This document shows, piece after piece, positions 9,194-32,524 of a DNA stretch of 45,480 bases. Position numbers and translations under genes: made by a program. The number at the start of each line of letters is the position of its first letter. Within the stretch, counting starts at the first letter, position 1. The notes beneath the pieces are model-generated. The model searched no databases, was not told where the DNA came from, and saw only the letters and a program-made list of their open reading frames with translations. The stretch comes from a virus, in the IMG/VR virus record IMGVR_UViG_3300013306_000027, positions 1-45,480 of that record; one strand, 5' to 3'.

Positions 9194-9228
9194 GCGAACC
9201 TCCTGGGTATAACGCCCTCACTCAACTG

Positions 9229-9255: not shown

Positions 9256-9270
9256 TTGGGATGAAAAACT

Positions 9271-10086: not shown

Positions 10087-10099
10087 AGAGGGGATTATC

Positions 10100-10435: not shown

Positions 10436-10444
10436 GGATATCTC

Positions 10445-14808: not shown

Positions 14809-16194
14809 GTGTTTGTAGCTGCATTGTTTTGTGGAGTGAAAGGGCTTGAGCCAGAGGGGAAATATTTCCTGGTGCGGTTCATTCAGCACTTCGGCATAGC
14901 GGAGCCTGTCAGCCTTGGTGTGAAGGCTTTGGCAAAGCAATTTGGACTCTCCGATCGCCAGGTGACTAAGTCGCTGAAAGAGCTGGTTGAGTGCGGTGTA
15001 ATGACCGTTTCGTCCACTCCCGAGGGCAGGGGGCAACCGAAGAGGTGCTACCGACTCCAGGAGGATTTTCACAGAGAGCTTGATAAGGCAGCGCCGCTGC
15101 CAACAATGCAGCACGCGGCAACCGCCGCCAGTCTGCTGAAGCACGAAATTAAGAAGCCTGTCCAAGCAAGCGAAAAACCTGAAAAGCAAAAGGTCGATCT
15201 GGCTCCGTTAGCTGATCTACGGAGGAAAATACGGCCCGGTCAGTTGAGTATCGTGAATCGCCTGTTGCTGAGTGTGCTGTTATGCCACGCCGACCGTTTT
15301 GGCGTGGTCAGCGACCTGGGCTCTTCAGCGCTGCGCAAGGTCACGGGGCTCAGTCAGGAACGCTTGAGGTACAGAGTGCGGGGACTGATTGATCAGGGGC
15401 TGATACGGGCTTATGTGCCGGGTGCAACCGGCACACTTCTTTCTGCCAAAACGAAAAGCATCTACTTCCTCAACCTGAACCACCCTGAGCTATCAGACGA
15501 GGGCAGTGTCACGTCAGTTCTGGTTTGCGTAACAGGGGACCCATTCCCCGACCGTGAGCCAGATGTGCTGCACGCATACAGGTTTTATAGCGAAACCGTC
15601 CTCCCCAAGGGGAGTTCCAAGGTTTATGGAAGGCGTCCATGCACGCCGCTTCTTGGTGCCTTTGAAGGGCAGCCCCGATCATTTTTTCGTGTATTACAGA
15701 CGATGCTGGAAAAATATGCCGCCGGTTTTCTATCCAAGCATTGGTCTGATCTAGGTGTCCAGCCGTTTAACAGGTGGATCGACGCTCAAGAGTGGCGAGT
15801 GCTCATTGGCAAGGACTTTCTGCGAAAGAAACCGCTGCCAGTTCCAGATACTGAGCACCTGAAAAAAATCGATGATCAGCACGTATTGTTAGTGGAGGAG
15901 TTATGTCACTGGGCTCACGATCTGGCGATCTGGATCAAAGATCTGCTTTGCCAAGCCTCCGATGCTTCATTTGGTGCGATGGGGTTCGCCATCATTCCCC
16001 AACCCATGGCGCTTGGCTATTATCGTTTCGCGTTGCTTGCGCTACCCAGTGACTCAGATGATGGCCGTAGCTGTTTAGTCATTGAGCCATATGCAGGGCA
16101 GCAGTATTTTGCGTGCGAGTCTGAGATACCCCTTGAGGATCGATACCGTTTCGGTTTGTTGACCCGGCCAGGCAGCGAGGGGGCGGCCGCATAG
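14809..16194 (+). CDS. Winged-helix DNA-binding protein of the island, 461 aa
   Basis: A GTG start follows GGAGG at 6 bases. Two winged-helix segments can be seen: one near residues 30-85 (LGVKALAKQFGLSDRQVTKSLKELVECGVMTV) and one near 150-210 (SSALRKVTGLSQERLRYRVRGLIDQGLI). The C-terminal half has no recognisable motif. The two-wHTH plan is shared by replication initiators and regulators. Next to iteron-like repeats it could control replication or excision of the island; this is inference from position. Confidence 0.65.
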   Translation: MFVAALFCGVKGLEPEGKYFLVRFIQHFGIAEPVSLGVKALAKQFGLSDRQVTKSLKELVECGVMTVSSTPEGRGQPKRCYRLQEDFHRELDKAAPLPTMQHAATAASLLKHEIKKPVQASEKPEKQKVDLAPLADLRRKIRPGQLSIVNRLLLSVLLCHADRFGVVSDLGSSALRKVTGLSQERLRYRVRGLIDQGLIRAYVPGATGTLLSAKTKSIYFLNLNHPELSDEGSVTSVLVCVTGDPFPDREPDVLHAYRFYSETVLPKGSSKVYGRRPCTPLLGAFEGQPRSFFRVLQTMLEKYAAGFLSKHWSDLGVQPFNRWIDAQEWRVLIGKDFLRKKPLPVPDTEHLKKIDDQHVLLVEELCHWAHDLAIWIKDLLCQASDASFGAMGFAIIPQPMALGYYRFALLALPSDSDDGRSCLVIEPYAGQQYFACESEIPLEDRYRFGLLTRPGSEGAAA

Positions 16195-16249
16195 GTATTT
16201 TCTTACAGGGCCTCCCAATCCTCTGAACGGAATACAGAGGAGCCTGTTC

Positions 16250-16471
16250 ATGAGGTTAATTCGCCTGAAGGATGTCAAGCACGTCACTGGACTAGGTCGG
16301 TCCACCATCTACAAATACATCGAAGAGGGAGTCTTTCCTAAGTCAGTGTCGCTGGGGGGAAGAGCAGTGGCCTGGGTTGAAAGTGAAGTGATGGGCTGGG
16401 TCATGGCTAGGATCGAGGCTCGTGATACTCAGGAGTCTTTCACTGCGGTGCCGCAGCTAAAGGCTGCATGA
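16250..16471 (+). CDS. AlpA-family transcriptional regulator, 73 aa
   Basis: The protein is a compact MerR/AlpA-type helix-turn-helix: LKDVKHVTGLGRSTIYKYIEEGVFPKSV, then a wing GGRAVAWVESEVMGWV. AlpA proteins act as excisionase-like or activator proteins of P4- and CP4-57-type islands, controlling the integrase and excision. A GAGGAG site precedes the ATG. Its place near Rep is typical for these islands. Length matches the family. Confidence 0.85.
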   Translation: MRLIRLKDVKHVTGLGRSTIYKYIEEGVFPKSVSLGGRAVAWVESEVMGWVMARIEARDTQESFTAVPQLKAA

Positions 16472-16609
16472 TCTTCGTCGATGGGTTGAGCTTGGGCCCA
16501 GTCATTCGGTCGGCGTTCGTGCTGCTCGGATGACTCTCAAAAGTGGTTTAGTTCCAGAGCATCTGAACCATTGAAACCGTCGCATTCTTCCCGCGTTCCC
16601 TGTCATTTC

Positions 16610-16641
16610 AGCTCCCCACTCCCTTGCGGGCCTGGGGAGCT
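16610..16641 (+). terminator. Terminator-like hairpin downstream of alpA-like gene
   Basis: Arms AGCTCCCC and GGGGAGCT enclose 16 bases with an inner CCC/GGG pairing. It is about 140 bases past the AlpA stop. There is no clear T-run after it, so its termination strength is uncertain and it could instead be part of the origin. Confidence 0.4.
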
Positions 16642-16811
16642 GGATTTCGGTATTAGTATTATTTATAGAGTCTATATTTGTAGATAATATTTATACGAAA
16701 TATCTATTGGTTATAGCGTCAGCACATACACCCATTACAACCAATCGAGCCTACCAATCTTCAGATTCTATTCAGAGACCTATTAGGCTAACCCTCAAAG
16801 GGGGAAGCGCC

Positions 16812-16892
16812 ATGAGTTCAACAGACCTAGGTCAACCGGATCAGCGCCAGACACTGAGCCAAGATCTGTCTCACAGGCAGATCGAATCGTAA
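16812..16892 (+). CDS. Possible 26-aa leader peptide
   Basis: An ATG behind a strong AAAGGGGGAAG site opens a 26-codon frame (MSSTDLGQPD...QIES). It is polar with no membrane segment and ends just before the hairpin that precedes the Rep gene. It could couple translation to the hairpin and control Rep level. The only support is the ribosome site. Confidence 0.3.
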   Translation: MSSTDLGQPDQRQTLSQDLSHRQIES

Positions 16893-16904
16893 ATATATAC
16901 CCAG

Positions 16905-16934
16905 TCCGCTGAGTTTATGAATTCACTCAGCGGA
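16905..16934. repeat. Perfect 10-bp inverted repeat before the Rep gene
   Basis: TCCGCTGAGT and ACTCAGCGGA form a perfect hairpin with a 10-base loop (TTATGAATTC). It ends 8 bases before the Rep ATG, so it could be a nick-site hairpin for the HUH Rep or an RNA structure that hides the Rep ribosome site. Confidence 0.6.
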
Positions 16935-16942
16935 TCATCCCC

Positions 16943-17605
16943 ATGGCTCACCAATCCAAGCGTCACGCTGGCAACAGCAATCTTCACTTGCATTACGAGG
17001 ACACCTTTCGCGGTCTACCCGTGATGGCGTCCTACGCCCCCTTCATTACCGAATACCTCGAACGACTTTACGAAACGACTCAGTTAGCGCTGAGCGACCA
17101 TCGCCAGGTGTTCGCGATACGTTTCGATCTGCGCTTTCCAGACGACGATCTACCACCTGAATCAGGTAATGCCGTCATCTCCAGATTTGTCGACTCCTTG
17201 ACCGCCAGGATTCAATTAGCTCGCAAGCGCTCAGAGCGTCTGAACGGCTCTGCACATCAGACAAGCGTTCGATGGTGTTGGGTCAGAGAGATTGGGCAGG
17301 AGGGGCGTCCGCATTACCACTTCGTCTTACTGCTTAACCGAGATGCGTTCCACACAGTGGGGCGCTTTCAATCAGAAAGAGAGAACCTATACAGCCGCAT
17401 TCAGTCCGCATGGGCCAGTGCGCTAAGGGTTCCTTTCGAGGATGCCGTTGGCTTGGTGCATATCCCTGCAAACGCCACATTCCACCTCTCTCAGGGTGAT
17501 CCAGAGGAAATGGATCGGTACTTCCACCGTGTTAGTTATATCTGCAAAGCAGCGACCAAGGACTTCGGCAGTCGCTGCCGTGCATTTGGTTGCAGTAGGG
17601 ACTGA
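16943..17605 (+). CDS. YagK/YfjJ-type (inovirus Gp2-like) Rep protein with HUH motifs, 220 aa
   Basis: The protein carries a Rep motif I-like strand (FAIRFDLRF, about 57-65), a His-x-His pair H124/H126 in PHYHFVLLL, and Y199-x-x-K202 in VSYICKAAT. This is the metal-His and catalytic-Tyr pattern of HUH single-strand endonucleases. The RPHYHFVLLLN region and SRCRAFGCSR end fit the YagK/YfjJ C-terminal family found in CP4-57-like islands. It would nick an origin to start replication of the excised island. A perfect hairpin lies directly upstream. The ribosome site is weak. Confidence 0.75.
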   Translation: MAHQSKRHAGNSNLHLHYEDTFRGLPVMASYAPFITEYLERLYETTQLALSDHRQVFAIRFDLRFPDDDLPPESGNAVISRFVDSLTARIQLARKRSERLNGSAHQTSVRWCWVREIGQEGRPHYHFVLLLNRDAFHTVGRFQSERENLYSRIQSAWASALRVPFEDAVGLVHIPANATFHLSQGDPEEMDRYFHRVSYICKAATKDFGSRCRAFGCSRD

Positions 17606-18280: not shown

Positions 18281-21200
18281 ATGAACGAGTTGCTGCATGC
18301 ATCGGGAGCGGTGATAGCACTTTGGCTGGAGACAAAACTTCCTTCGCTAAGCCCGAAGTGGTGGGTCGACAATGTCTTTAACCGTTTGACCTTTCCGCAG
18401 CAACGACTCGTCGAGGAAAAGCGTATCCAGTCTCTCACGGGGCTTGACCTAGCCGCTATCCTTCGCGTGCTTGATCAGAACTGGACCGAACTGGCAGGGG
18501 CCGAGCCCCTCCCGAGAGAGGCGAGAAATTGGGTCAAGGAGCTGCAAAGCGTTCGCAATCGGTGGGCTCATGCTCCTGCAGGTGGCTTGAACTCCATGGA
18601 CGCTTATCGAGACGCCGATACTCTGAAGCGGTTCCTTTACGTTATTAATGCTGATGATGCTCTTCTAAACCGAGTCGAAGAGTTCAAGCAAGCTACTCTG
18701 GCTAGGATGGCATCGCAAATTCAAGTGCCAGCAGCGTCAATACAGGGCTCTGCCCAGACCACCCTACCTGCAGAAAGCCCTGCGCCCGCGCCAAAATCGG
18801 CACAAAAGTTTTCAGTTGGAGAGCTACTCTGCCTGCGCTCGAATCCTAGCGCCGTGTTCCCCGTTTTGGAGGTACTTCCAAGCGTAGAGGCAGAGACCCG
18901 CTACCGGGTCTTCGAGAATGGGGCGAGGCAGATTTACTATGAAAGCCAGCTCCAAGCACTGGATGAGCCAACTGAAAGCCATAAGGTCCTGACCGCGACC
19001 GAGCTCTCCGCAATGCTCAGTGCAGTGCAACTATCCTCGCCGTCGGCCTCTGCACTCTACTCATTGAATTCCGGCCGCGTTCGGTTTGTTCCGTACCAGT
19101 ACCGACCGATATTCAAGCTCATTCGAGCAGACCGGCCACGCCTGCTTGTTGCAGACGAAGTTGGTGTGGGTAAGACAATCGAGGCTGGGCTCATCCTCAA
19201 GGAGTTGCAGGCCCGTAGTGATATCAAGTCCGTCCTCATCATCTGCCCAAAAGCCCTTGTAGCGGAGCGCAAGTGGGAACTGGAGATGAAGCGCTTTGAT
19301 GAGCACTTCGTCGCGTTCGACGGTTCACTGCTCCGCCACTGTATTAAGGAAACACACCTCAGTGGTGAGTGGCCTGCCCAATACGAGAAAGCAATTCTTC
19401 CGACCTCACTGTTCGATGGCGATTTGCTCTTTGGCAAGCCGGGTAAGGGGAAGTCGCGAGACCTTGGTCTGCTTGAGCTAGATCCCTCACCGAAGTTCGA
19501 CCTAGTCATCGTTGATGAAGCGCATCACATCCGCAATGCAGATACGTTTCTGCACCAAGCAGTGCGCTACTTTGCGGATAATGCGGAGGCGGTGGTATTT
19601 CTTTCGGCTACCCCGATGCAACTTGGTCGTGAAGACCTCTACACGCTGCTAAACGTCCTGCGCCCCGACGTCATCATTGATCCGGCAAGCTTCAGCCAGA
19701 TGGCTGAGCCTAACCAGTTTATCAACACCGGCATTCAGGCCTGCCGTCGGGGAAGTTCAGGCTGGACAGAGGAAGTGCGGGAACAACTTCGTAGCGTTGC
19801 CAGCACTACTTGGGGGCGCGAGGTGCTCGCGGTGAACCCGGGGTTCCAGCACATCTATGATGGGCTAGCCGAAGGATCTGAGGACGGCGCTGCTCGCATT
19901 AAGACCATCCAGGCCCTGGAAGACCTCTACACTTTTAGTTCGCTCATCAATCGCACCAGGCGCCGCGACATCGGTGAATTCACGACCCGAAAGGCTGAGA
20001 CGGTTACCACCGAGTTCACGCCTAACCAAAGGGCTCTTCATGACGACCTACTTTCCGTAATCGCCCGAATTTTTGCTCGGCTGCATGGCAATCAGAACGT
20101 CAAGTTCATGATGACAACGGTCAGCCGACAGGCTGCGAGCAGCCTATATGGCTTGGCTCCAGCTCTCGAGGACATCCTTTTGGGCAAGCTCGCCCGTCTT
20201 GAAGCTGAAGACGATGGTGAAGACGTTGAAGAGCGCTCCTTCGACTTCGTGGGCCAAATTACCGAGGACATCGAGTCGCTTGTCGAGCGGGCCAAGCGTC
20301 TGGATCCGAAGGACCCGAAGGCAGAAGCCTTTATGCAGGTGGTCACTGACAAACTGACCATGCCTCGCAACAAGCTCTTGGTCTTCAGTACCTTCAGGCA
20401 CACCCTTCACTATCTCGTTGGCAAGCTGAAGGCGGCCAACATCCGCTTTGGCCTAGTGCACGGTGGCATCGCCGATGAAAACCGTGCGTCGCTGCGCTAC
20501 CGCTTTTCTTTGCCGAAGGAGGATGAAGACGCAATCGATGTGCTCTTATCCTCGGAGGTCGGTTGTGAAGGTCTGGACTTCCAGTTCTGCGACTGCCTCA
20601 TCAACTTCGATCTGCCGTGGAACCCGATGCGAATCGAGCAGCGCATTGGCCGTATCGACCGCTATGGGCAGCAAAGCGATGCAGTGGGTATCTTCAACCT
20701 GGTCACACCTGGGACGATTGATGCGGAAATTTATGACCGCTGCCTATCTCGTATCGGAGTGTTCCAGCATGCCATTGGCGGCAATGAGGAAATCCTGGGT
20801 GACATCACGCGAGAGCTTCACAGCATAGCCGAGACCTTCAACCTCAGCGAAGAGGAGCGGGCCCAACGACTTCAGCAACTGTCCGACAATAAGATTCGAC
20901 AAATCGAGGAAGAGCAGCGCCTCGAAGAGCGCCAGGGTGAGCTATTCGGACTCAATATCGCTGCGGCGAGCTGGGAACAGCGTCTGGCGCAGTCCCGAAA
21001 CCATTGGCTTGAACCTCATGCGCTTAGCCGTGCAGTGGCATCCTATCTGGGCCGACGTCTTGGCAAAGAGCAGGATTTCCTACTTGGGGACAAACCACTG
21101 AAAACCTTGCGTCTCAGCCAAGAGGCCCGTGCTACGTTGCTCGAGGACTTCCGCAAGCTTCCGCGTTCAACAGACCCGATGCATCGAGGATGGGAGAGAT

Positions 21201-21856
21201 GGCTCAAAGGCTCTGTGCCAACGCTGCAAGCCACGTTCGAGCAGGAGTGTGCTGTAGAAAATCCATCAGCGGTGCTTCTCTCCCTAGGGCACCCGTTGCT
21301 CCGTCAAGCAGCGGCCTTCCTCAAAGAGGCGGAGGTGGTCATCGTCAAGGTTTCGGTTATGCATGAGGCTTTGCCTGTTGGCACGCATCCATTTGCGCTT
21401 TACCGCTGGTATAGGCAGGGCGTGAAGCACGATGAAGAACTGGTGCCTGTGGCTGCTGAAGCATCCATCGCAGAAGCACTTCTGGAGTTACTGCAAGGGG
21501 CAGCTGACGCGCCTAGCGTTGAGGTGCCATCGCAGCAAGTCTGGGATGGCCTGGATGGCGTCCATCACCAGCTGTGGCTGGCAAAGTCGACACAGCATTC
21601 CGAAGACAATCGGCAGCTTGTTGGCGTGCGAATTCAGAGCCTGACGGCCAGCTTTACCGCTCGCAAGGCCTTGCTGGAAGAACAGATAGGACGTGCCACG
21701 AACGACAAGATTCGTGTGATGAAGCAGGCAGAGCTAGAGCGCGCGCAAGTCGACTTTGACATACGCATCGCCGCCTTACGTCGCGCAGCCGAAAGTGGCG
21801 ACATCCGAGCCACACCAACTGTGTTCGGTATTCTGGAAGTGCGGAGGCCAGTATGA
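18281..21856 (+). CDS. SNF2-family helicase with N-terminal Swt1-type HEPN domain, 1191 aa
   Basis: Residues 1-125 form a helical domain with an R-x4-H motif (R92-H97, in VRNRWAHAP), as in Swt1-type HEPN domains, which are often RNases. A superfamily 2 SNF2/RapA-like motor follows: Walker A (DEVGVGKTIEAG, about 292), DEAH box (IVDEAHHIRN, about 411), SATPMQ (about 443), and helicase C motifs ending QRIGRIDRYGQ (about 786). The C-terminus is helical and Gln/Glu-rich. It would translocate on DNA. The start follows a GAGGA site; the stop overlaps the next start by four bases, so the pair is coupled. DISARM's DrmD is a similar-size SNF2 protein, but no DrmA/B/C genes are present. Confidence 0.88.
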   Translation: MNELLHASGAVIALWLETKLPSLSPKWWVDNVFNRLTFPQQRLVEEKRIQSLTGLDLAAILRVLDQNWTELAGAEPLPREARNWVKELQSVRNRWAHAPAGGLNSMDAYRDADTLKRFLYVINADDALLNRVEEFKQATLARMASQIQVPAASIQGSAQTTLPAESPAPAPKSAQKFSVGELLCLRSNPSAVFPVLEVLPSVEAETRYRVFENGARQIYYESQLQALDEPTESHKVLTATELSAMLSAVQLSSPSASALYSLNSGRVRFVPYQYRPIFKLIRADRPRLLVADEVGVGKTIEAGLILKELQARSDIKSVLIICPKALVAERKWELEMKRFDEHFVAFDGSLLRHCIKETHLSGEWPAQYEKAILPTSLFDGDLLFGKPGKGKSRDLGLLELDPSPKFDLVIVDEAHHIRNADTFLHQAVRYFADNAEAVVFLSATPMQLGREDLYTLLNVLRPDVIIDPASFSQMAEPNQFINTGIQACRRGSSGWTEEVREQLRSVASTTWGREVLAVNPGFQHIYDGLAEGSEDGAARIKTIQALEDLYTFSSLINRTRRRDIGEFTTRKAETVTTEFTPNQRALHDDLLSVIARIFARLHGNQNVKFMMTTVSRQAASSLYGLAPALEDILLGKLARLEAEDDGEDVEERSFDFVGQITEDIESLVERAKRLDPKDPKAEAFMQVVTDKLTMPRNKLLVFSTFRHTLHYLVGKLKAANIRFGLVHGGIADENRASLRYRFSLPKEDEDAIDVLLSSEVGCEGLDFQFCDCLINFDLPWNPMRIEQRIGRIDRYGQQSDAVGIFNLVTPGTIDAEIYDRCLSRIGVFQHAIGGNEEILGDITRELHSIAETFNLSEEERAQRLQQLSDNKIRQIEEEQRLEERQGELFGLNIAAASWEQRLAQSRNHWLEPHALSRAVASYLGRRLGKEQDFLLGDKPLKTLRLSQEARATLLEDFRKLPRSTDPMHRGWERWLKGSVPTLQATFEQECAVENPSAVLLSLGHPLLRQAAAFLKEAEVVIVKVSVMHEALPVGTHPFALYRWYRQGVKHDEELVPVAAEASIAEALLELLQGAADAPSVEVPSQQVWDGLDGVHHQLWLAKSTQHSEDNRQLVGVRIQSLTASFTARKALLEEQIGRATNDKIRVMKQAELERAQVDFDIRIAALRRAAESGDIRATPTVFGILEVRRPV

Positions 21857-24800
21857 GCGTCATTCAGACAATCGCAAGTCAACGTAAGAAGCTGCTCGAT
21901 GGCCTAGATGCCAATGAAGGCGATATCAACCTTCGCATCTTTGAGGACTTCTACCCCGACGAAGCCCACTTCATTTACGAGCTCCTACAAAACGCTGAGG
22001 ATGCTGGGGCCTCTGAGGTTTCGTTTGAACTGTTACCTCATTCCTGTGCGTTCGAACACAACGGAACTCGCCACTTCAACGAGCAAGACATTCGCGGCAT
22101 CACCGGGATCTTCAATAGCAGCAAGAAGGATAGTCCCGATAAGATTGGCAAGTTTGGGGTTGGGTTCAAGTCAGTGTTTGTATACACGGATTCGCCTGTT
22201 GTCTACTCCAAGGACTACAGCTTCAAGATTTTGAAGCTGGTTCTCCCTCAACAAGTTCCTCCCAAGCAGGGTTTGGGTGAGCGGACGCGCTTCGAGTTAC
22301 CGTTCAACAACCCCAAGAAGGATGTCGAGACTGCGTATGCCGAGGTCAAAGCTGGCCTCGAGCAGCTCTCCGAGACGACTCTTCTGTTTCTCAACAACCT
22401 TCGATACATCAAGTGGAAAGTCGGAGCCCAAGAAGGTGCGGTTCTTCGCGAGGAGCACTCGGAATCGCATGTTGAGGTGCTTAAACTTGTCGATGGCAAG
22501 GAAGTCCTCAGTTCGCACTGGCTACGTTTCAGCGCTCCAGTGCAGGACGTTACTCGCTTCTCTGCACCTGTTGACGGAGTTGAGCGCCAGAAAGTAACAG
22601 TCGCATTCGAGCTCGAATTGACCAGCGATACAAATTCCTTCGACAAGAGCAAGCCGCTTGCCAAGCAGGTTAAGATCATCTCAGCGATAAAGGGCAAGGT
22701 CTCGGTCTTCTTCCCTGCTGAAAAGGAGACATCCGGACTGCGATTCCATTTGCACGGGCCCTTTGTCCCCGAACTGAGCCGAGCCAGCATCAAAAATTCT
22801 TCGGAGAACCTTCCGCTCTTTGATCAACTGGCAGTTGTTACCGCGAAGGCTTTGCACAAAGTCAAGGAAATAGGCCTCCTGACGGGTGAGTTCCTCGCTG
22901 TGCTCCCAAACAACGATGACCCACTTCCGGAGCGTTATCAGGTCATACGCAAGGCGGTCCTAGAGGAGATGCGTAAGACCCCACTGGTGCCAACATATGG
23001 GGGGGGCTTCGCTCCGGCGATGCGCCTATGTCAGGCGCGTGCGTCGCTCAAGGCGCTCCTGCATGCAGAGGACTTGGCGTTTGTGACCGAGCGTAGAGAC
23101 GAGCCAGATTGGGCAATTGGTGCTACGCAGAGGAACAGCAATCAAGATAGGCTCTTGGCAAGCCTGGGAATACCGAGCGTGGATACCGAGGATCTCAAGA
23201 AATTCTTCGAGTCCAAGGCTCGAAGGAGCAACTATTCCTGGGATGAGTTCGAGCTGAGTCCGAGTGTCCTTAGCTGGCTCGCGACAAAGTCATTTGAATG
23301 GCTTCAATCGTTGTACGAGTTGCTACATAAGCACTGCGAAGCCCTTGGCGACTATGGCAGTCTGCGAGATGTCTATTTCGTCAAGCTCACGTCAGGAAAT
23401 TGGGGGACTGGTTCCATCGCTTACTTTCAGACGGGGCCAGTCAGCGAAACTGACCCGTATTATCGGGTGGACGACCGCATTCTTACGACTGGGATCCTGA
23501 AGGCAAAGCAGCAGGATGCAAGGCTGTTCTTGGAGCGAATTGGCGTTCGTGAACCCAATGAGGTCGACGAGATGATCCAGTTACTACGGTCTCGGTATCA
23601 GGAGAGTACATCACCTCCGAGCGATAAGGCCTACCTTGAGGACCTCGAGAGGATGATTGCCCTCCTGGAGAAGAACCCGTTTCTGAAGGGTATATTTGCG
23701 AAGGCCCGCATCTTCAAGATTGCATCATTGTCCGCGCAGTGGGCGACGGCAAGCCAAGTCTACTTGGACTCCCCATTCATGCGAACAGAACTCAAAATAT
23801 TCTACGAATTGACCGTCGACCAGAAGCAAAAGCGCTGGCCGCTGGACTCATGGTACTTGTCTTCTGGTATTCCCGCAGAAAATATTTCACGCTTTGCCGC
23901 GCAAGTTGGCTGCCAGAAGGAGTTTGACGAGCTCTACACTATAGCCAGTTGTAGGAACAACCCTAACTGGATGTACCTGTCGCAGGCAGCAGGAGCCCGC
24001 CGCTCAGGCAACTCCATTAACCATGACTTTGCCCTGACAGCTGAGGCTTTGCTGTTGTTGAATTCGAAAAAAACGGAGGCTGCGCTGTTGGTGTGGCAGG
24101 CGCTACGTCGGAGCGATACTGCATCGCCGTCCATTCTCAAGGCGCGCTACCAGTTAACCGAGAAGGGTGGTTCCCGCTATGCAGATTCGCAGCTCGTATG
24201 TGTGCTAAAGGATCTTGCATGGATCCCTCAGACAGACGGTTCTTTCGTCAAGCCAAGGGCTGCAACTGCTGCTCGCTTGCCCAAAGGCTTCGCAGTCGAT
24301 ACCGGATTCAAGTGGCTGGAAGCACTTGGGTTCGGGACGGATGACAAGAGGCGAACTGCTGACAATACTATTCGTGCTACGCACCGAGATGAGCTCGGGT
24401 TCAAGTCGGAAGAGGAATTACATCGAGCGCTAGCCTTCACCAAGCTTCCGATCGAAGAGCAGCATCGCATCTTGGACTTGGCTTCCAAGGGTAGTCCGGA
24501 GCCAGTCGAGCTTCCGGAACGGTCAGTTCGTAATCCTGAGCTTCGCCAGAGGCGTGTGGGGGAGGAGGCAAGAGAGACACCCGATAAGACTTCTGTGCAG
24601 CGGCAGCGCTCGGTGCAATTGGGGGCAGCTGAGGCTAAGTCTGCAGCAAAGGCCTACCTCGCAGACCAGTACATTAACTCCAACGGGCAGATGATTTGCC
24701 AGGCCTGTATGGGAGAGCTGCCGTTCAAGTTGCCTACGGGGGAGTACTACTTCGAGGCAGTGGAGCTAGTGGTCGACTCACCCAAGCGCTACCGTGAGAC

Positions 24801-25002
24801 ATACCTTGCACTTTGCCCAAATCACGCCGCCGCGTACCAATATGCCAACGCACAGCGAAACTCTATGGGCGAGCTCGTGGCCACGGCCGCAAGCAATGAA
24901 ATCGAGGTAGCCTTGGGCGGCTACGTGACGACTCTTTATTTCACGGAGATGCATCTGGCCGACGCCAAAGCGTGTCTGAACTGGGAAGAGAGCGAGGAAT
25001 AG
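21853..25002 (+). CDS. Sacsin-like GHKL ATPase with degenerate HNH-like C-terminus, 1049 aa
   Basis: The N-terminus is a GHKL (Hsp90/sacsin/MutL fold) ATPase: N-box YELLQNAEDAGAS (about 38-50) and G-motifs around IGKFGVGFKSVF (about 98-109). A long middle region has no known domain. Near residues 949-990 is a zinc-like site: CQAC, a YYFEAVELV strand, and LCPNHAAAY. The layout matches HNH domains, but the usual Glu-x-His-His is replaced by EAVEL, so catalysis is doubtful. It overlaps the SNF2 gene by four bases. GHKL ATPases paired with SNF2 helicases, C5-methylases and Vsr nucleases are known from restriction-type operons, which suits the neighbourhood. Confidence 0.82.
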   Translation: MSVIQTIASQRKKLLDGLDANEGDINLRIFEDFYPDEAHFIYELLQNAEDAGASEVSFELLPHSCAFEHNGTRHFNEQDIRGITGIFNSSKKDSPDKIGKFGVGFKSVFVYTDSPVVYSKDYSFKILKLVLPQQVPPKQGLGERTRFELPFNNPKKDVETAYAEVKAGLEQLSETTLLFLNNLRYIKWKVGAQEGAVLREEHSESHVEVLKLVDGKEVLSSHWLRFSAPVQDVTRFSAPVDGVERQKVTVAFELELTSDTNSFDKSKPLAKQVKIISAIKGKVSVFFPAEKETSGLRFHLHGPFVPELSRASIKNSSENLPLFDQLAVVTAKALHKVKEIGLLTGEFLAVLPNNDDPLPERYQVIRKAVLEEMRKTPLVPTYGGGFAPAMRLCQARASLKALLHAEDLAFVTERRDEPDWAIGATQRNSNQDRLLASLGIPSVDTEDLKKFFESKARRSNYSWDEFELSPSVLSWLATKSFEWLQSLYELLHKHCEALGDYGSLRDVYFVKLTSGNWGTGSIAYFQTGPVSETDPYYRVDDRILTTGILKAKQQDARLFLERIGVREPNEVDEMIQLLRSRYQESTSPPSDKAYLEDLERMIALLEKNPFLKGIFAKARIFKIASLSAQWATASQVYLDSPFMRTELKIFYELTVDQKQKRWPLDSWYLSSGIPAENISRFAAQVGCQKEFDELYTIASCRNNPNWMYLSQAAGARRSGNSINHDFALTAEALLLLNSKKTEAALLVWQALRRSDTASPSILKARYQLTEKGGSRYADSQLVCVLKDLAWIPQTDGSFVKPRAATAARLPKGFAVDTGFKWLEALGFGTDDKRRTADNTIRATHRDELGFKSEEELHRALAFTKLPIEEQHRILDLASKGSPEPVELPERSVRNPELRQRRVGEEARETPDKTSVQRQRSVQLGAAEAKSAAKAYLADQYINSNGQMICQACMGELPFKLPTGEYYFEAVELVVDSPKRYRETYLALCPNHAAAYQYANAQRNSMGELVATAASNEIEVALGGYVTTLYFTEMHLADAKACLNWEESEE

Positions 25003-25042: not shown

Positions 25043-25480
25043 TTATTCCCCATTCCCCGATGACTGGCGGATTAAGGTATATAGTCGCTCACCGGTTGCA
25101 TTGGCTTTTGCCATGGATGCTAGTTCGCATTCCCAGACAACGAATACCCTCCATCCCCTTGCTTCTAACTCTGCTCTTACAAACTCATCGCGTGCGACAT
25201 TTTTCTCGAATTTCGCTAACCAAAATGTAGTGTTGCTCTTGGGCGTCGTTGCCGTTTTGCAGCCAGTGTGGTTGTGCCAGAAGCATCCATGCACGAACAC
25301 TACGGCCTTGTATCGTGGGAACACTAGATCCGGCTTTCCAGGCAAGTTAGTAGCATGCAGCCGGTAACGAAGGCCATGCCCATGGAGGACCTTGCGTAAT
25401 GAAAGTTCGGGCTGAGTGTCCTTGCTCCTTATGCGTGACATCCTTTCTGAGCGCTCTGCAGGTGAAAGGAAATCGGTCAT
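25043..25480 (-). CDS. vsr: Very-short-patch-repair endonuclease (Vsr family), 145 aa
   Basis: The full Vsr pattern is present: MSRIRSKDTQPE near the N-terminus, D51 in GKPDLVFP, then H64 and H69 in FVHGCFWHNH, with zinc-ligand Cys/His. Vsr nicks T:G mismatches produced by deamination of 5-methylcytosine and usually accompanies a C5-methyltransferase, here the dcm-like gene of the same operon. E. coli Vsr has Thr before the first active His; here it is Val63, as in many homologues. An AGGAGG site lies 6 bases before the ATG, just after a perfect hairpin that separates it from the upstream gene. Confidence 0.92.
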   Translation of the reverse strand: MTDFLSPAERSERMSRIRSKDTQPELSLRKVLHGHGLRYRLHATNLPGKPDLVFPRYKAVVFVHGCFWHNHTGCKTATTPKSNTTFWLAKFEKNVARDEFVRAELEARGWRVFVVWECELASMAKANATGERLYTLIRQSSGNGE

Positions 25481-25492
25481 TCCAGGCCTCCT

Positions 25493-25522
25493 GCCTAGGC
25501 CCTGCTAATGCAGGGCCTAGGC
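25493..25522 (-). promoter_or_regulatory. Perfect 13-bp hairpin between the DptH-like gene and vsr
   Basis: Arms GCCTAGGCCCTGC and GCAGGGCCTAGGC pair perfectly around a TAAT loop. It lies between the stop of the DptH-like gene and the vsr ribosome site. No T-run follows on the minus strand. It could be an mRNA processing or stability element, an attenuator, or a protein-binding palindrome. Confidence 0.65.
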
Positions 25523-25527
25523 ATTGC

Positions 25528-28500
25528 TCAAGTTTGACTTGTGAGTTCGAAGAACGGTAATCCCCGCATGACCTCGCCAGCCACGTCGAATGACTTATAG
25601 AGGCAATGGTGGTTGGGCAAGGTCTTTACACGTTCCGATAGTTCGGCAAGGTCCGATGTGAAGCCCAATGCGCTAAGCTCGGCGGGAGTAGCGTTAGGAA
25701 CCTTGTGGATGAACCAGGTCAACAAAGGCTCCCTGTAGTCGGTTGCTCCAGCCTTGAAGTGTTTAAGGTACTGGGAAGCAAGGATAACGCCCGTCCCGAA
25801 TTCACGGCCCTGCAATAGCAGCTTGCGGAGCACGTCGAATTCATAGCGCATTATGTTGTCCGCTTCATCCACTAGAAGGTACGAGTCGATGGCCCGCAGT
25901 TGCGGATCGCTGCCTACAAAGGGGTGCTTGGGGGTTCGGAGCATGTTCTCGTAGAACATATTCAGCATGATAGCGACGAGCATGTTCTTGCTCTTGTCAT
26001 CCTGTCCAATGGAGTCCAGAGAGATCACCACTACACCATCGAAGAATTTATCGAAAGGAATAGTTTCTGAAGTGGACCGGGAAAATACCTCCCTGTCCAC
26101 GAGGTCGTCGATTATCGCCATCGGCGAGTCCGACTTTCCGTCAAGGATCTCTTGATACTCCCTATGGATGTCGTAGATCGTAGGTTGGTGGCCAAGCGTT
26201 TTGGCCTCCTCGTAGGCATTGCGAACTGCTCCCTTGAGCTTGCTAAGTTGCACAGGACCCATTCCCGAGTAAATCTTGTCGAGGACATCGGCAAAGAACC
26301 GGAATCTATCCAACCATGGTGCCGTAGACTCTCCCATGCCCGTAGTATCGAAGAGGTTCAGGGGCAGGTGATGGGGCTTTACTACCTTGGCTCCTGTTGC
26401 AGCGATAAAGTCCTCGCTGCTGTAGTCGCGTTTGTAATCGAAGATTAAGAATCGTGGCCTGATCCCACGGTTTTCCTGTCTGGATCTGGATATCTGCGTG
26501 ATCAAGGATTTGAGGAATTGGGTCTTGCCCGTCCCAAGGTCGCCCACCACACCGATGTTTAACTGGTTAAGCCGCGTGTCGGATATGTTTAAGGCGAGCG
26601 CTCGTGGCTCGAAGCCATCCACGGTCTTCCCTACGGACAGAATAACTCCACTACCTGGCTCTTTAGGTGTTGAGGGAGGCACCCTCACGCTTATGTCTCC
26701 TGAATACTCTCCGGTAATCGGCTGAGGTGCAATAATGTCCTCGACTAGCACTGGCTTGGCAGGTTGCTCGCCTGCCCTCTGGGCTATATCGACCTGCGAA
26801 GTGGAGGCTGCTGGAGCTTGCTTAGGGGGCAAGAGCCCCCAATCGCCCACTTTTGCGCGCACTGCTTCGTAGAACGACTGTGCATCTTTTCCGGCTACGA
26901 TACGACCTGCGTCCTGGCTTGAGATGACAATTGTTTCATCATAGTTGTCGCCATCACGATCATGCGGACCACTCTGGGTTGAGCCGTCAATTACGATAAG
27001 TCGGCCCCTTGAATCTAAGCTGGGCCTCGAGTCAGGGTCGAGTATTGCTGCGGCGATGCGTTCGTGGTAGGTGGCCCAGCGGCTAGCCTGTCCCGCGACT
27101 GCCTGATGCTGGCTGTAGACACGTAAGCCAAAGCCAACCATCGAAAGTAGTAGGTGCTGATAGGCTAGGCGCCATACCACAGATCTACTAGCGCGCTCCT
27201 CGATGGCTTGCAAAAGTGTGGAGAGTGCCCTTGCTTGGGAAAGGGCTTCGACGGCATCGTTGGCCCCGAACACGCTACCCTGGCGGCACTTGACCTCTAT
27301 AGGAGTAAGGTGAAGATGGACTCCATCGCTACAGGCCCGCACGCCGACGACAAGTAAGTCGGGACGTGACAGTGAGGTGTCCTTGCGCTCCTTGCCGAGG
27401 GAGCGGGCAAGGTCTGCAAGATAACCTCTGAAGGGATCAACGGGGACGATTATTGCAATCGTGCAATCGTCTTGCGAACCTGCGAGCACTGGCAGCAGGC
27501 TGTTCTGGTTTCCTTCTACACGGAACTGGTCCTGAAGGAGTCGGACCGCGAGGAAGAGACCAAGGTCGCCTGTGGCACCTGTATCGTCCCCAGAGAGGCC
27601 ACGCACAGTGGGAATACCCCTTCTGGCGACTTCCAGTAGGATTTGCTCGACCTTGTCGTCTTCTAGATCCTCGCACTCGGGAAGAGGCTTCAAAACCCGG
27701 CGCAAGGCGTCACGATCGGCTTGCTTGACCTGCGATAGGAGGTAATAGCCGCTAGTATCGCCTGCGCGATGGGAGTACGAGGGGAGGTCGTAGTCCCAAA
27801 GGTAGGTACCTTTGATCCAGCCACCCAAAAAGCAAGCAGGATCGATTGCAGAAGATGAGACTGCAACGTAACCGGCGCTGTTTTCCTCAAGCATGTCGGA
27901 TACTGCATGGACACTAGGCGAGAACTGTAGGCCAACCTTTCCGTCCCTAAGCTTTTCTACCATGAGCATGCATGCTGAAACCTTGTCGGCGAACGGTTCG
28001 CCGGAGGGAGGCATCTGAAGTCCTTGACGGGACTCGCTCAGGAAGGAACCTTGAAGCTGGCGCCTTACCCGGTGCCTGATGAGGCCACCAGCCCCCATGG
28101 GTGAGAGCATGCCGACTTCTTTGGACTCAGGTTGTGCTGAGTTCATTTGGGCAATGATACCTAGATCAGGTTTCGCACCGATGGGTTGCTTGTCATACCA
28201 GCGGACGTGGTTATCGGTGTCCTCGGAGAGGTTGGCGATCGTAGCCTGATCCGGTCTTCCGGAAGTCCTAGTATCGAACACCTCCAAAATCCGCACGCCG
28301 ACACTTTGTTTAGGGGTGTCCGTGTCCCCGTTACCGAACCGCTTGGTGCACCAGTGGGCCAAGCCTTCGTTGCAGGCATCAGTGCTGCCACCTGCGCTGG
28401 ACACTACCAGACTGACGATGGGCTTTGCTGCCAGAAGGTTGGTGACATCGTCGAGAGCGCGAGAAACCTGTGCTGGACTAAACCCGCTTGAGATGCCACC

Positions 28501-30990
28501 TACCGTTAGCCCGAAGGTGTTGTCAAACGGGGGACGGCGGGTCCGATCGGGTAACAAGCCCAGGCGAGAGCCATTCCATAGGACGGACCAGTAGTCGGAG
28601 CTACACTCGACTGACAGGAAGTCGATCCGGTCTATGCCACTTGGAGACTGCAATGAGATTGTCAGTAGGTCGGGGACGCAATCAGGGTCAAGGATGCTCG
28701 CAGCAGGGCAGGGGCAGGGGGAGTCGCCTTCTACCTCGTCCCGCAGCACTTTCTGGGCGAGACAATGCCATGCAAGACGCAACGGATGTAGGGGGGAAAG
28801 GATGATGGCGTCTGGAGCTCTACTCAGGGTACGTCCGTCCGGTTCTAGCGAGCAGACCGCCACGGTATCTATCCAGCAAGCGATGTCCGAGTCTGCCTCA
28901 AGCCAAGACATGTATGCCTCAAGGTAGGTTTCGACGAGTATGCGGAACCCCTCGTCGTCTGATAGCCAGGCTCCTAATTGCGCGGACTCGAGGAGTCCCG
29001 ATTGGTCATCGCTGCCTCGTATATATTTCGCAATCTCCAGGCGGGCTTCCACGAATCCCTTTGGCGGTTGGAAGCTCATTGCATCGGGGCGCGGGTCGTG
29101 CAGGAAGCGGCCGTGCGAGAGTATTGGACCATGAGGGGCATCCCAGTCAGGAGGAGCCCATCTGGATGCGTAGTCGTCTGCTATCACCAGAGGCCTGAAC
29201 GACTTGGCTACGTTCTGCTCTTCGAGTATCCATGACTGCAAACTTGAGGATCGGGCATTCCGGTCGAGATGGACGACGGCCTTGGTGTCGAATTTCTCGA
29301 GATGTCGGCGGTTCAGCTTGATTAGACGCTCGAATTCGCTCCGGCAGCCTTCCTCCTTTGCCTCATCGCAAGCAAGGTAGACTCTGCAGACTTGAGGGTT
29401 GGCCTCGGCCGGTATCTTGAAGGTTATGTCCAACTGATATTTGCCGTCGGCCTCCACTTCCAGCAGGTACTCGTCTTCTCCAACCAGACGAGCCTCGATG
29501 GATTGCCGCTGCTCCTCTAGCTCAGTAGCATCGTCCGGCATGCCCTCCACGTTGCCAATGATTGCGCCTGGCGATAGGTGGAGACGCAACTCATATCGCC
29601 CCGAGCCAGGCAGCGATAGGGATGTCTCCCAGACCGGCGTCGAAGTGTTCTTGCGGGGCTTCTTCGGAGGTGACAGTTTTGTCGCTAACCTACAGGTTAC
29701 AAGTATCCCGGGTTTCCAGTTTATTAGGGAAATAACCCGGATACTTGCGGGCTTGCAGCCCTCAGAGGTGACCTTATAGGTTATGGGGGTCTTGTGTGCG
29801 GGTGGGAGTAGGTCTGTGTGCTGGGTAACTCCGTTGGAGGCTGCTTGCAATGGCGTTGGCGCCTTGCCATAGGAGCCTCCAGCTAGCAGGAACGCTTCTG
29901 GTTGGCTGTCATCGCTCGTAGAGATGGCTAGCTCGACCATGTCACGTACTACCGCTGGTAAGCCCTTGGTCGCTGGAATAACACTATTCGTGCACCGGAT
30001 GCTGATCTCTCCAACCACTTCATCGGGCTCATCGGCAAGCAGATCCGTCCACTGCTCTATAGTGAGCAATTTCCACCAGGATGGCGGAGGAGTGAGCTCA
30101 AGGGCCTTTCCAGGCAGATAGAAGGCCTCAGTAGCGCGTTCAAAGGCAGTAGGGATGTCGCAACTCGCTTGGAGGTGGACGAGTAACTCCCGCAGAGCTT
30201 GGGCTATATCGTCAGGGGCGCTTTGTGCAAGGCGTTCGATGCCAGTCTTGAAGCCATCTGCAAGCTCATCGGCAATTTTTCCTAGGACTGAGAGCTGGGC
30301 CTTCGACGAGATCCCATCTCCTTTCATCGGCGGGAGACCGCATGCCAGGGCAAGCGCCTTTCCAGATGAGAGGCCTTGATGGGAGGTCTCGATCGAATAG
30401 ATGCGAGATAGCATGCGCCATGAGGCACTGTGGTTCGCTTGATCAGGATCCACTTCGTCGATGGAGTCTGCGGCTGCGCGCACTAATTGCTTGGCATCGT
30501 CTCTTTGCGAATCCTCTATACCTGCAACGAGCAACGCCTTATTAACGGCTTGCTGCACAAAACCGTCTTCCCACCATTTGTCGAAATTTGCGCTCATGCC
30601 GAACACGTCGCTTGAGGACTCAATCGAGAGGTTATTGTGCTGGCCTGCAGGAACTAGGGCGACGAAGCTGGAGTTGTTTGGATCATTTCGTACATCCAGT
30701 AAGTGGTCGTTATCACATTTGCCGGACTCACCTATTCGGAGCTTATGGCCTTTTAGGTGGCCATCTGGGCACTGGAGCAGTACTGGTAGAGTCACCAAAC
30801 TACCGTCTATTCCAGACATAACTTGAATCCCCCCGTCGAGAACGAGCTCGTCGTAGACTTGTTCGAGTATTTCAAGGGGGGGGCCGCGGAAGATTAGCCG
30901 GTATTCAAATTTGTTACCGCTAAGCCCTTGTGTGGCGCCCACAGCTTTTTCACGGACAATTGATGCAAGCCACTGTGCAAGTCTATTCAT
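25528..30990 (-). CDS. DptH-like giant protein: PD-(D/E)XK-like nuclease segment plus HerA/FtsK-type ATPase, 1820 aa
   Basis: The start at 30990 (MNRLAQWLAS) overlaps the upstream stop by eight bases. The N-terminal 1,150 residues have no clear domain. Around residues 1208-1234, RPDLLVVGV followed by LTPIEVKCRQG makes a PD...ExK nuclease pattern, then a helix with AVEALSQARAL. Residues about 1480-1820 form a HerA/FtsK-type ATPase: Walker A GDLGTGKTQ (about 1482), FLIFDYKRDY, Walker B YLLVDEADN (about 1703), then LASQYLKHF. Great length with a C-terminal HerA-like ATPase as the last gene of a three-gene set is the DptH plan of phosphorothioate-dependent restriction. No dnd genes are present. 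Alternative: an unrelated HerA-nuclease fusion. Confidence 0.75.
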   Translation of the reverse strand: MNRLAQWLASIVREKAVGATQGLSGNKFEYRLIFRGPPLEILEQVYDELVLDGGIQVMSGIDGSLVTLPVLLQCPDGHLKGHKLRIGESGKCDNDHLLDVRNDPNNSSFVALVPAGQHNNLSIESSSDVFGMSANFDKWWEDGFVQQAVNKALLVAGIEDSQRDDAKQLVRAAADSIDEVDPDQANHSASWRMLSRIYSIETSHQGLSSGKALALACGLPPMKGDGISSKAQLSVLGKIADELADGFKTGIERLAQSAPDDIAQALRELLVHLQASCDIPTAFERATEAFYLPGKALELTPPPSWWKLLTIEQWTDLLADEPDEVVGEISIRCTNSVIPATKGLPAVVRDMVELAISTSDDSQPEAFLLAGGSYGKAPTPLQAASNGVTQHTDLLPPAHKTPITYKVTSEGCKPASIRVISLINWKPGILVTCRLATKLSPPKKPRKNTSTPVWETSLSLPGSGRYELRLHLSPGAIIGNVEGMPDDATELEEQRQSIEARLVGEDEYLLEVEADGKYQLDITFKIPAEANPQVCRVYLACDEAKEEGCRSEFERLIKLNRRHLEKFDTKAVVHLDRNARSSSLQSWILEEQNVAKSFRPLVIADDYASRWAPPDWDAPHGPILSHGRFLHDPRPDAMSFQPPKGFVEARLEIAKYIRGSDDQSGLLESAQLGAWLSDDEGFRILVETYLEAYMSWLEADSDIACWIDTVAVCSLEPDGRTLSRAPDAIILSPLHPLRLAWHCLAQKVLRDEVEGDSPCPCPAASILDPDCVPDLLTISLQSPSGIDRIDFLSVECSSDYWSVLWNGSRLGLLPDRTRRPPFDNTFGLTVGGISSGFSPAQVSRALDDVTNLLAAKPIVSLVVSSAGGSTDACNEGLAHWCTKRFGNGDTDTPKQSVGVRILEVFDTRTSGRPDQATIANLSEDTDNHVRWYDKQPIGAKPDLGIIAQMNSAQPESKEVGMLSPMGAGGLIRHRVRRQLQGSFLSESRQGLQMPPSGEPFADKVSACMLMVEKLRDGKVGLQFSPSVHAVSDMLEENSAGYVAVSSSAIDPACFLGGWIKGTYLWDYDLPSYSHRAGDTSGYYLLSQVKQADRDALRRVLKPLPECEDLEDDKVEQILLEVARRGIPTVRGLSGDDTGATGDLGLFLAVRLLQDQFRVEGNQNSLLPVLAGSQDDCTIAIIVPVDPFRGYLADLARSLGKERKDTSLSRPDLLVVGVRACSDGVHLHLTPIEVKCRQGSVFGANDAVEALSQARALSTLLQAIEERASRSVVWRLAYQHLLLSMVGFGLRVYSQHQAVAGQASRWATYHERIAAAILDPDSRPSLDSRGRLIVIDGSTQSGPHDRDGDNYDETIVISSQDAGRIVAGKDAQSFYEAVRAKVGDWGLLPPKQAPAASTSQVDIAQRAGEQPAKPVLVEDIIAPQPITGEYSGDISVRVPPSTPKEPGSGVILSVGKTVDGFEPRALALNISDTRLNQLNIGVVGDLGTGKTQFLKSLITQISRSRQENRGIRPRFLIFDYKRDYSSEDFIAATGAKVVKPHHLPLNLFDTTGMGESTAPWLDRFRFFADVLDKIYSGMGPVQLSKLKGAVRNAYEEAKTLGHQPTIYDIHREYQEILDGKSDSPMAIIDDLVDREVFSRSTSETIPFDKFFDGVVVISLDSIGQDDKSKNMLVAIMLNMFYENMLRTPKHPFVGSDPQLRAIDSYLLVDEADNIMRYEFDVLRKLLLQGREFGTGVILASQYLKHFKAGATDYREPLLTWFIHKVPNATPAELSALGFTSDLAELSERVKTLPNHHCLYKSFDVAGEVMRGLPFFELTSQT

Positions 30991-32524
30991 GATCGCTTCC
31001 CTGGGTGACTTGGCTTGTGTGGAAAGGAGGCAACAGCAGCATGCCACTTTCGGCGTCTGGGCTATCTAGCACGAGACCAAGCATCCTTAGTTGGTGCCCC
31101 AGGTCGTTCCTGGCAATGTCGTGTTTGTCTACGGCAACGCCGTAGGCCTCGAGGTGCAGTCCTAGTCTATGGATTGAGCGAGGTCCAACCATCCCAGCGA
31201 GTGCGCAGTGGACCAAGGCAAGAACGGCTACAGGTCCAAGGGAGACGATCCATGGGCTGGAGGGGCTGCTGCCTTTCTTTTTGAGGATGTATCCCTGATC
31301 GTACCCTCTGAGCAGCGGGACTGCGGCCTGGCGTTGCCCTAATGCATGCCTCGCGAACTCCAGCAAATTGGAGCCTATGCCTTTCCTGCATAGCAAAGCG
31401 CGCGCCTCTTGCTCGCGTATGTCGGTAATGGTTTCCAGGGTGCCCGCGTTGACGAGTGCATCTCGATGCTTCTGGATATGCTGGCAAAGCGCAGCAATAC
31501 CTTTGCTTGATGAAAGGTCGCCCTCGTAGGGCGCTCCTATTTGCTTGAGTGACCAAAGGAGTGCATTGATCCCTAATCTGGCATTCAGGTAGCTGGAGAC
31601 CTTGTCCTTGATACCCTGAAGGGCTTTCCCTCCATATGCCATGTACTGGGGGGCTTCCGGGAAAATTGCATTCCTTGCCTCTTGCTCGTTAGGAGTCACG
31701 CCATTGGTAAGTGCTGCCAATAGACAGCTCCAGATCCTCGCGTGGACGTCACAGAGCCATGTCACATGGGAAACTGCTCCTAGGCGCAACACTGCCTCTA
31801 GCAAGCTGGTCCATTGCCGGCGAGTCATGGCGTCTTTCGCCTGCATGATGGCCTGCAGGTCTTTGGTGAATCGTCTGGAGGGCAGGAACTGGACTTCCAG
31901 AAAGTCGGAAGCTTCGAGTGTTGCCGTTTCCTCATCAGGGATCGGCACTAGAGCCCAGGTGGTTGCCCCTTGATTCCACGACGATGTCTCTTGCTCGAGC
32001 CAGCGGGCGAAAACGTCGTCTTCGTCGTTGACACTCAGAGCTTCAAATAGGCTTTTCCAAAGGAGCTGTGCTGATTCCTGATCCTTTGAGCCTAGGCAGA
32101 CCATGCGGCGTATCAAGCTGCCGGCTGGCCAGGAGTTGCTGCTTAGCCGAGCGGAGCCGGAGAAGAGCGCTGCTCCTGGTACTAGGGGGGTGACCTGCAA
32201 GAACCGCTTGGAGGATTGGTTGGGGAGCTTTGGGCTCTCCAGTATTCCATGAAGCACGGCATTCCAGGCCTCAACGCCTACTACCGCACCGGTGGGGGGC
32301 AGCTGGCTTTTTTCCCGAAGTTTTTGGATGCGCTTGTCCAAGTCGCGCCCCGCCTGTGGCACGCAGCCCTCGCTTGCTGATGAAAAACCTATAGTCCGGT
32401 AGAGCGAGGCAAGTAGGACCTCCGAGCTCGCATATTCAGGTGCCGGGCTTATTGCTAGGGCCGATTTCTGGTAGCTACTGTGGGAGAACCGCCAGGGGGC
32501 CTGCTTGAAGTCCATAAGGCTCAT
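30983..32524 (-). CDS. Unknown restriction-module protein in DptG position, 513 aa
   Basis: The start at 32524 overlaps the DptF-like stop by four bases (ATGA), and the 3' end overlaps the DptH-like start by eight, so the three proteins are made in coupled amounts. The protein is helical with a Trp-containing core (FARWLEQETSSWNQGATTWALVP, about 175-200) and a mixed C-terminal region (PWIVSLGPVAVLALVHCAL, about 425-445). No catalytic motif is visible. Its place between an AAA+ ATPase and a giant HerA protein matches DptG of DptFGH systems. That identity is by position only. Confidence 0.65.
   Translation of the reverse strand: MSLMDFKQAPWRFSHSSYQKSALAISPAPEYASSEVLLASLYRTIGFSSASEGCVPQAGRDLDKRIQKLREKSQLPPTGAVVGVEAWNAVLHGILESPKLPNQSSKRFLQVTPLVPGAALFSGSARLSSNSWPAGSLIRRMVCLGSKDQESAQLLWKSLFEALSVNDEDDVFARWLEQETSSWNQGATTWALVPIPDEETATLEASDFLEVQFLPSRRFTKDLQAIMQAKDAMTRRQWTSLLEAVLRLGAVSHVTWLCDVHARIWSCLLAALTNGVTPNEQEARNAIFPEAPQYMAYGGKALQGIKDKVSSYLNARLGINALLWSLKQIGAPYEGDLSSSKGIAALCQHIQKHRDALVNAGTLETITDIREQEARALLCRKGIGSNLLEFARHALGQRQAAVPLLRGYDQGYILKKKGSSPSSPWIVSLGPVAVLALVHCALAGMVGPRSIHRLGLHLEAYGVAVDKHDIARNDLGHQLRMLGLVLDSPDAESGMLLLPPFHTSQVTQGSDHE

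Follow-up and report, generated by a model that had tools for sequence, protein, structure and literature searches.

A HEPN-bearing SNF2 translocase and a sacsin-type GHKL ATPase probably form a mobile phage-defence unit

Two adjacent genes are considered here, which lie in a 45,480-nucleotide stretch of DNA from IMG/VR record IMGVR_UViG_3300013306_000027. The whole of this stretch is called the window, and L and G numbers designate the loci and genomes compared with it. The initial annotation of this DNA had described two large open reading frames (ORFs) overlapping by four bases, and both were recovered, the stop codon of the first sharing an ATGA with the start codon of the second:

18281..21856, + strand: HEPN-Tudor-SNF2 protein, 1191 amino acids (stop included), ATG start
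21853..21856, + strand: ATGA stop/start overlap of the two genes
21853..25002, + strand: sacsin-type GHKL ATPase, 1049 amino acids, ATG start

The two genes travel together between bacteria and probably form a phage-defence unit made from known parts. The first protein is divided as follows:

18281..18646, + strand: HEPN domain of the Swt1 type (residues 1-122)
18554..18571, + strand: R92-N-R-W-A-H97 motif, the predicted HEPN RNase site
18803..18946, + strand: small Tudor-like beta barrel (residues 175-222)
18956..20890, + strand: SNF2 translocase motor (residues 226-870; PF00176 and PF00271)
20891..21853, + strand: helicase C-terminal region (residues 871-1191), in which Pfam detects no nuclease (E 0.1)

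The HEPN_Swt1 family of Pfam (PF18731) covers residues 15-122 of the helicase with an E-value of 2.8e-14 and a score of 53.8 bits, above the curated cut-off of 27.5; the distant L014 copy, at 26.9 bits, falls slightly under it. An AlphaFold2 model of residues 1-225, built from ten sequences, folds residues 1-147 into an all-helical bundle, with predicted local distance difference test (pLDDT) values per block mostly between 85 and 96. The top VIA-align row for this model is the C-terminal domain of yeast Swt1 (4pqz; 116 residues, 3.4 Å, Z 7.0, a modest value for helical bundles). Gifsy-1 HepS is also among the VIA-align rows (Z 4.5), and Foldseek returned nothing for the same model at E ≤ 0.001. 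Because the Pfam match and the 4pqz row are independent and agree, the domain is assigned to the HEPN fold. The R-x4-H motif that the initial annotation had picked out in it reads RNRWAH, and R92, N93, W95, A96 and H97 are unvarying in all 15 aligned HEPN-SNF2 homologues (the window, L002-L010, L014 and L028-L031). Both the fold and the motif are thus borne out, structure prediction giving the bundle and no homologue lacking the motif. Since R-x4-H is kept in all 15 sequences although HEPN-domain identity to the window drops from 94% to 30%, it is no chance motif. The ratio of nonsynonymous to synonymous divergence (dN/dS) of this domain is 0.084 against L006, indicating purifying selection, and 0.54 against L003, on very few changes.

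The association of the two genes was found from either side. A full HEPN-SNF2 gene lies directly upstream in 9/9 loci retrieved with the ATPase from a scan of a genome-contig collection, and a GHKL gene lies downstream in 4/4 unfused homologues retrieved with the helicase and opened (L014, L028, L029 and L030). The neighbourhood survey that had been proposed for the two-gene unit therefore found a conserved pairing. The four-base overlap is present in 12 of the 13 pairs measured, the window's included, and the helicase is adjacent to the ATPase in all 14 HEPN-bearing loci outside a fused remnant. One of these loci, L014, is a faecal phage record whose helicase is 38% identical to that of the window. 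Two other faecal phage records whose match begins at residue 1 (H42 and H43) and one locus of Rhizobium bangladeshense (H3) lie outside the locus set, and L017 and L026 were set aside as repeats of L006 and L008, respectively. Scans of viral contigs gave no further relative. Candidate copies in E. coli were discarded: in 33 of 5426 genomes, the similarity is limited to 70 bases of a helicase gene, and the single locus opened belongs to MADS.

The spread of the unit can be gauged from a sample of 398 genomes of the phylum of a Pseudomonas, whose chosen centre, G005, corresponds to L006. HEPN-SNF2 is present in the centre and in G073, G077, G154 and G169, a lower bound, two candidates per genome having been scored at first, and ATPase sequence adjoins it in all five. 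The ATPase of G154, located close to the end of a contig, is split over two frames. In G169, a 641-amino-acid in-frame fusion of helicase front to ATPase tail, apparently a deletion remnant, keeps HEPN. In this fused remnant (L031, 570-2495), HEPN and the first half of the motor are joined to the ATPase tail. In four sample genomes, the SNF2 homologue found at E ≤ 1e-60 is HEPN-less, and ATPase motifs are found near none of the four; against the five HEPN-bearing genomes with GHKL (centre and fused remnant included), a two-sided Fisher test gives 0.008, and 0.029 without the centre. The ATPase itself is found at E ≤ 1e-25 in eight of the 398 genomes, namely the five with HEPN-SNF2 and G061, G132 and G228, for which the stretch fetched contained no SNF2 homologue (one contig being only 3 kilobases long). 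Because three of the eight are in this situation, the association of the GHKL gene with SNF2 helicases is not exclusive. At L047 (5185-11193) and L048 (5027-11562), sacsin-type ATPases adjoin helicases that appear, from their first residues, to be UvrD-like instead of SNF2.

HEPN_Swt1 matches in the same sample number 16, spread over 15 genomes: five have the HEPN-SNF2 architecture, two belong to DUF499 fusions, and the other nine lie in frames of 157-413 amino acids, one of which was scanned. Since five of the 16 have this architecture, HEPN-SNF2 is a recurrent form within a sparsely represented family and no curiosity. The earlier view that such a form is unusual is not supported, multiple HEPN-SWI2/SNF2 fusions having already been reported (PMC3710099).

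Three parts of the second protein are of interest:

21952..22218, + strand: GHKL nucleotide-binding part (residues 34-122; ELLQNAEDA, EHNG, GKFGVGFK), with sacsin SR1 as top structural row
22903..24252, + strand: fast-changing middle (residues 351-800), a candidate sensor
24697..24825, + strand: zinc-knuckle-like CxxC...CPNH tail (residues 949-991), from alignment

That the partner of the helicase is a sacsin-like GHKL ATPase, as had been proposed, is upheld by two families above their cut-offs, the SACS domain of Pfam (7.3e-19, 69 bits against 32.8) and NCBIfam NF047352, 'sacsin N-terminal ATP-binding-like' (9e-25, 86.9 bits against 50). PADLOC TmtA matches residues 29-802 at 1.5e-52, the match ending at position 802 of 1302 in the best profile; TmtA profiles are listed as 1063-1782 positions long. 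Sacsin SR1 is also the first row for the ATPase model (Foldseek 7.3e-05, VIA-align Z 10.5), a low-confidence model with a mean pLDDT of 55.6 that is too weak to show whether the GHKL part is followed by an S5 domain, as expected of MORC/paraMORC proteins. A MutL/MORC-type GHKL was considered and set aside, sacsin SR1 ranking first and MutL and gyrase B rows lying near it (Z about 9) for this low-confidence model. The middle region has the lowest identities in the protein and the highest nonsynonymous divergence. The tail is found in most ATPase copies, L028 having no clear alignment there. An HNH domain at the C terminus, to which the CxxC...CPNH pattern bears a possible likeness, was likewise dropped: Pfam gives no match for residues 930-1049.

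The two genes do not always share the same recent past. Between the window and its nearest relative, L003 (6372-13141), the helicase protein is 96% identical and the ATPase 62%. At the DNA level, identity is 94-97% in the helicase gene and declines within the ATPase gene through 84% and 72% to about 50%, while silent differences (pS) rise from 0.05-0.16 in SNF2 to 0.55-0.82 in GHKL. This jump in silent divergence indicates that the helicase and ATPase genes have different recent histories, with recombination at or near their junction. Helicase and ATPase identities otherwise covary (r 0.93 over 66 pairs from 12 loci, L009, L030 and L031 being left aside for their partial ATPases), and the window/L003 pair shows the largest ATPase shortfall. 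It offers a natural chimera for asking which protein determines phage specificity.

The motor of the first protein, by its sequence, is an SNF2 translocase of the DrmD/BrxHII/RapA type. SNF2-rel_dom and Helicase_C both exceed their Pfam cut-offs, and the motor motifs are readily seen (I, DEVGVGKT, at 292; DEAH at 412; VI, QRIGRIDR, at 787). The best PADLOC match of the motor and C-terminal part is the DISARM helicase DrmD (1.3e-115, residues 239-1060), BrxH and HmaA models ranking among the next. With NCBIfam DISARM_DrmD (NF038317), the helicase scores 325.7 bits, below the curated cut-off of 610, and the HEPN-less relative L033 reaches 2.3e-221 with the same PADLOC DrmD model. The NCBIfam RapA model also matches (2.2e-56), and this is the point in favour of a housekeeping factor that would recycle RNA polymerase in the manner of RapA, without any role in defence; yet its 191.7 bits are far under the curated cut-off of 576, the DrmD match is better, and the gene is rare (at least five of 398 genomes) and surrounded by defence genes, all of which makes such a function very improbable. 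Upstream of the motor, the Tudor-like barrel is predicted from 53BP1 Tudor rows (Z 4.2-4.6; strands within 182-221) at low model confidence. Downstream of it, an active PD-(D/E)XK nuclease was sought in the C-terminal region and provisionally set aside, Pfam giving no match and residues 871-1191 showing no clear group of invariant positions. No DNase family was found in either protein (Pfam, E 0.1).

Pairs of SNF2 and sacsin-type ATPase genes also exist without HEPN, on Rhizobium and Ensifer plasmids (L012 and L013) and in Methanomethylovorans (L016). The alignment of their SNF2 proteins with that of the window starts only at residues 140, 170 and 250, respectively, and the N terminus of the L012 SNF2 protein gave no HEPN match. 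In a tree of 24 motors, built, like the C-terminal alignment, without the fused remnant, the 17 ATPase-linked motors form one group with support 98/99. HEPN presence maps onto this tree as two changes, L016 and L011 being long branches, and a single origin of HEPN is possible. An ORF of about 180 amino acids and of unknown family lies upstream of the rhizobial HEPN-less SNF2 gene and overlaps it (L012, 11300-11830; L013, 9283-9837). A separate HEPN gene in rhizobia was considered and rejected, as this ORF gave no HEPN match. Because these three loci pair motor and GHKL without HEPN, HEPN is not required for the pairing. They would suit a reading in which HEPN binds RNA or aids assembly without cutting, the pair translocating on DNA or DNA-protein complexes and nucleases coming from elsewhere, and non-catalytic HEPN domains have indeed been described (PMC3710099). 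Against this stands the invariance of the catalytic-type residues across all 15 homologues, despite domain identities down to 30%, and a non-cutting HEPN is considered improbable.

The neighbours of the pair differ from locus to locus. L008 (27-12827) carries PglX, PglZ and BrxL just upstream on the same strand, and L014 (1-16144) carries PglX fragments and PglZ, again upstream on the same strand, with 22 bases between PglZ and the HEPN-SNF2 ORF. In L005, the pair is preceded by a type IIG enzyme and followed by a DruE-like helicase, and in L006 a type I R gene lies upstream. At L002 (7646-8788), a protein with the NO VEIN C-terminal domain (PF13020) starts on the final nucleotide of the ATPase ORF and is a possible third gene. 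In the window, a minus-strand operon at 25043-36371 encodes a C5 methylase, two proteins of 715 and 525 amino acids without family, an 1839-amino-acid HerA protein, whose last 350 residues match the HerA/FtsK protein DndH (8.9e-72), and Vsr. This operon is perhaps a methylase-coupled relative of DndFGH. It recurs in L003 in the same order at 31-71% identity, the methylase position lying beyond the L003 stretch. The link with C5-methylase/Vsr operons drawn in the initial annotation is therefore real in the window and does not extend to a fixed partnership: the Dcm/Vsr operon adjoins the pair in two of ten close loci, the window and L003 only, and was rejected on this ground as a fixed third part. 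Further downstream, at 39754-42922 (+ strand), is a complete Septu-type pair of overlapping genes, PtuA (6.9e-246) and PtuB (4.1e-85, weak HNH). Among eight window proteins (18281-38899), PADLOC finds neither PglZ nor BrxC, and its DISARM models match the helicase only, with the C5 methylase appearing as lower-ranked relatives. Genes for phage head, ejection and endolysin proteins occupy the left side of the window (1174-10996), replication-type genes follow (14809-17605), and an integrase lies on the right (43852-45207), the record being classed as viral. The phage genes on the left and the integrase on the right indicate that the defence genes of the window are carried by a prophage-like element or lie next to one.

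This variety of neighbours argues that the pair is a mobile component of defence islands, tied to no single modification system. It could nevertheless serve as an accessory of adjacent restriction or BREX systems, to which it would contribute helicase and clamp, as does BrxHII to type 3 BREX, HEPN being a backup weapon. The BREX genes upstream in L014 and L008, the rank of BrxHII among the models related to the helicase and the HEPN backup effectors discussed for BREX-related systems (PMC12839542) all fit such a role. However, BREX genes were recognised in only two of 15 loci (both distant), neighbours vary, and no modification or BREX gene set was seen in the L004, L007, L009 and L010 stretches, whose ORFs were partly scanned. 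An accessory role consequently appears somewhat unlikely.

Altogether, these findings led to a model, to which we give about even odds, in which the pair is a mobile two-protein defence module whose motor and GHKL sensor gate a HEPN RNase that aborts infection. The SNF2 motor would track along the double-stranded DNA of an invader or along DNA-protein intermediates, and the GHKL protein would serve as an ATP-driven clamp that detects a feature of the invader by means of its variable middle. With the two conditions satisfied, the HEPN domains would dimerise and cleave tRNA or mRNA, translation would stop, and the infection would be aborted. In neither protein was a second intact nuclease domain recognised, and the role of effector would accordingly fall to HEPN. 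In this model, the ATPase may be an exchangeable sensor switch placed over the motor-borne RNase. The HEPN fold and its motif, unvarying in 15 of 15 homologues, the absence of a Pfam DNase, the two-way gene pairing, the Fisher test on HEPN and GHKL, the tree group, the defence neighbours and the recombination at the gene boundary were counted in its favour. Several points weigh against it. The poor ATPase model leaves sequence variability as the sole basis for reading residues 351-800 as a sensor under change, and their dN/dS against L006 is about 0.24, which suggests relaxed constraint and no positive selection, most other comparisons being saturated and without a usable ratio. The Swt1 likeness is, as noted above, modest for a helical bundle. 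HEPN, not being needed for the motor/GHKL pairing, may be an add-on, and not every HEPN domain is believed to cleave RNA (PMC3710099). A more specific version is offered tentatively: the pair would by itself make up an anti-phage system, as yet unnamed, whose sacsin-type GHKL protein, with its exchangeable sensor, licenses the HEPN RNase only once the motor sits on foreign DNA, the HEPN-less sisters using the same switch with another effector. If the model is correct, it would directly exemplify the control of an RNA-cutting suicide domain by a DNA-tracking motor through an Hsp90/sacsin-like switch, and bacterial sacsin-type ATPases would gain a function open to testing.

The pair shares features with several known systems. 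Its SNF2 motor and C-terminal region resemble those of DISARM DrmD, BREX BrxHII and HmaA, the DrmD alignment running over residues 239-1060. It differs from DISARM in that the helicase stays under the curated cut-off, HEPN-less L033 matches the DrmD model more strongly, and no DISARM gene set stands beside the pair. TmtA, which we take to be the single-gene Tiamat system, is also a sacsin-like GHKL ATPase, but the match is partial (802 of 1302), and here the ATPase has a constant helicase partner.

HEPN-DUF499 proteins of type 1 BREX-related/Hma systems, exemplified in the sample by L049 and L050, are large NTPases that likewise begin with a Swt1-type HEPN. Their NTPase part is DUF499 and not SNF2, and its partners are a methylase and a helicase (PMC12839542), in an article whose text does not contain the terms ghkl, hsp90, sacsin, drmd or mutl. 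DndH-like HerA systems are covered in PMC10853773, and the pair is not described in the examined parts of PMC12458937 and PMC8195603. No published description of a HEPN-SNF2/sacsin-type GHKL pair was found in the open-access papers searched.

The closest precedents are two. HEPN has been fused to SWI2/SNF2 helicases multiple independent times (Anantharaman et al. 2013, PMC3710099), and these fusions resemble the window protein in placing an Abi2/Swt1-class HEPN on SNF2, with a proposed suicidal RNase joined to a DNA-targeting system. In the sections of that article considered here, a sacsin-type GHKL partner is not described for them, whereas a HEPN-paraMORC GHKL fusion and Swt1/Abi2 HEPN fused to DUF499 are. 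Operons combining a MORC or paraMORC GHKL with an SWI2/SNF2 helicase, a cytosine methylase and Vsr have also been reported (Iyer et al. 2008, PMC2292703). The window resembles them in having GHKL beside an SNF2 helicase, with methylase and Vsr nearby. Its ATPase, however, best matches sacsin SR1, SACS and TmtA, methylase and Vsr are no fixed neighbours, and the word 'sacsin' is absent from that paper's text as consulted. With respect to these sources, HEPN-SNF2 fusions (2013) and GHKL, SNF2 and Dcm/Vsr operons (2008) are known, and what appears new is the pairing of HEPN-SNF2 with a sacsin-type GHKL ATPase.

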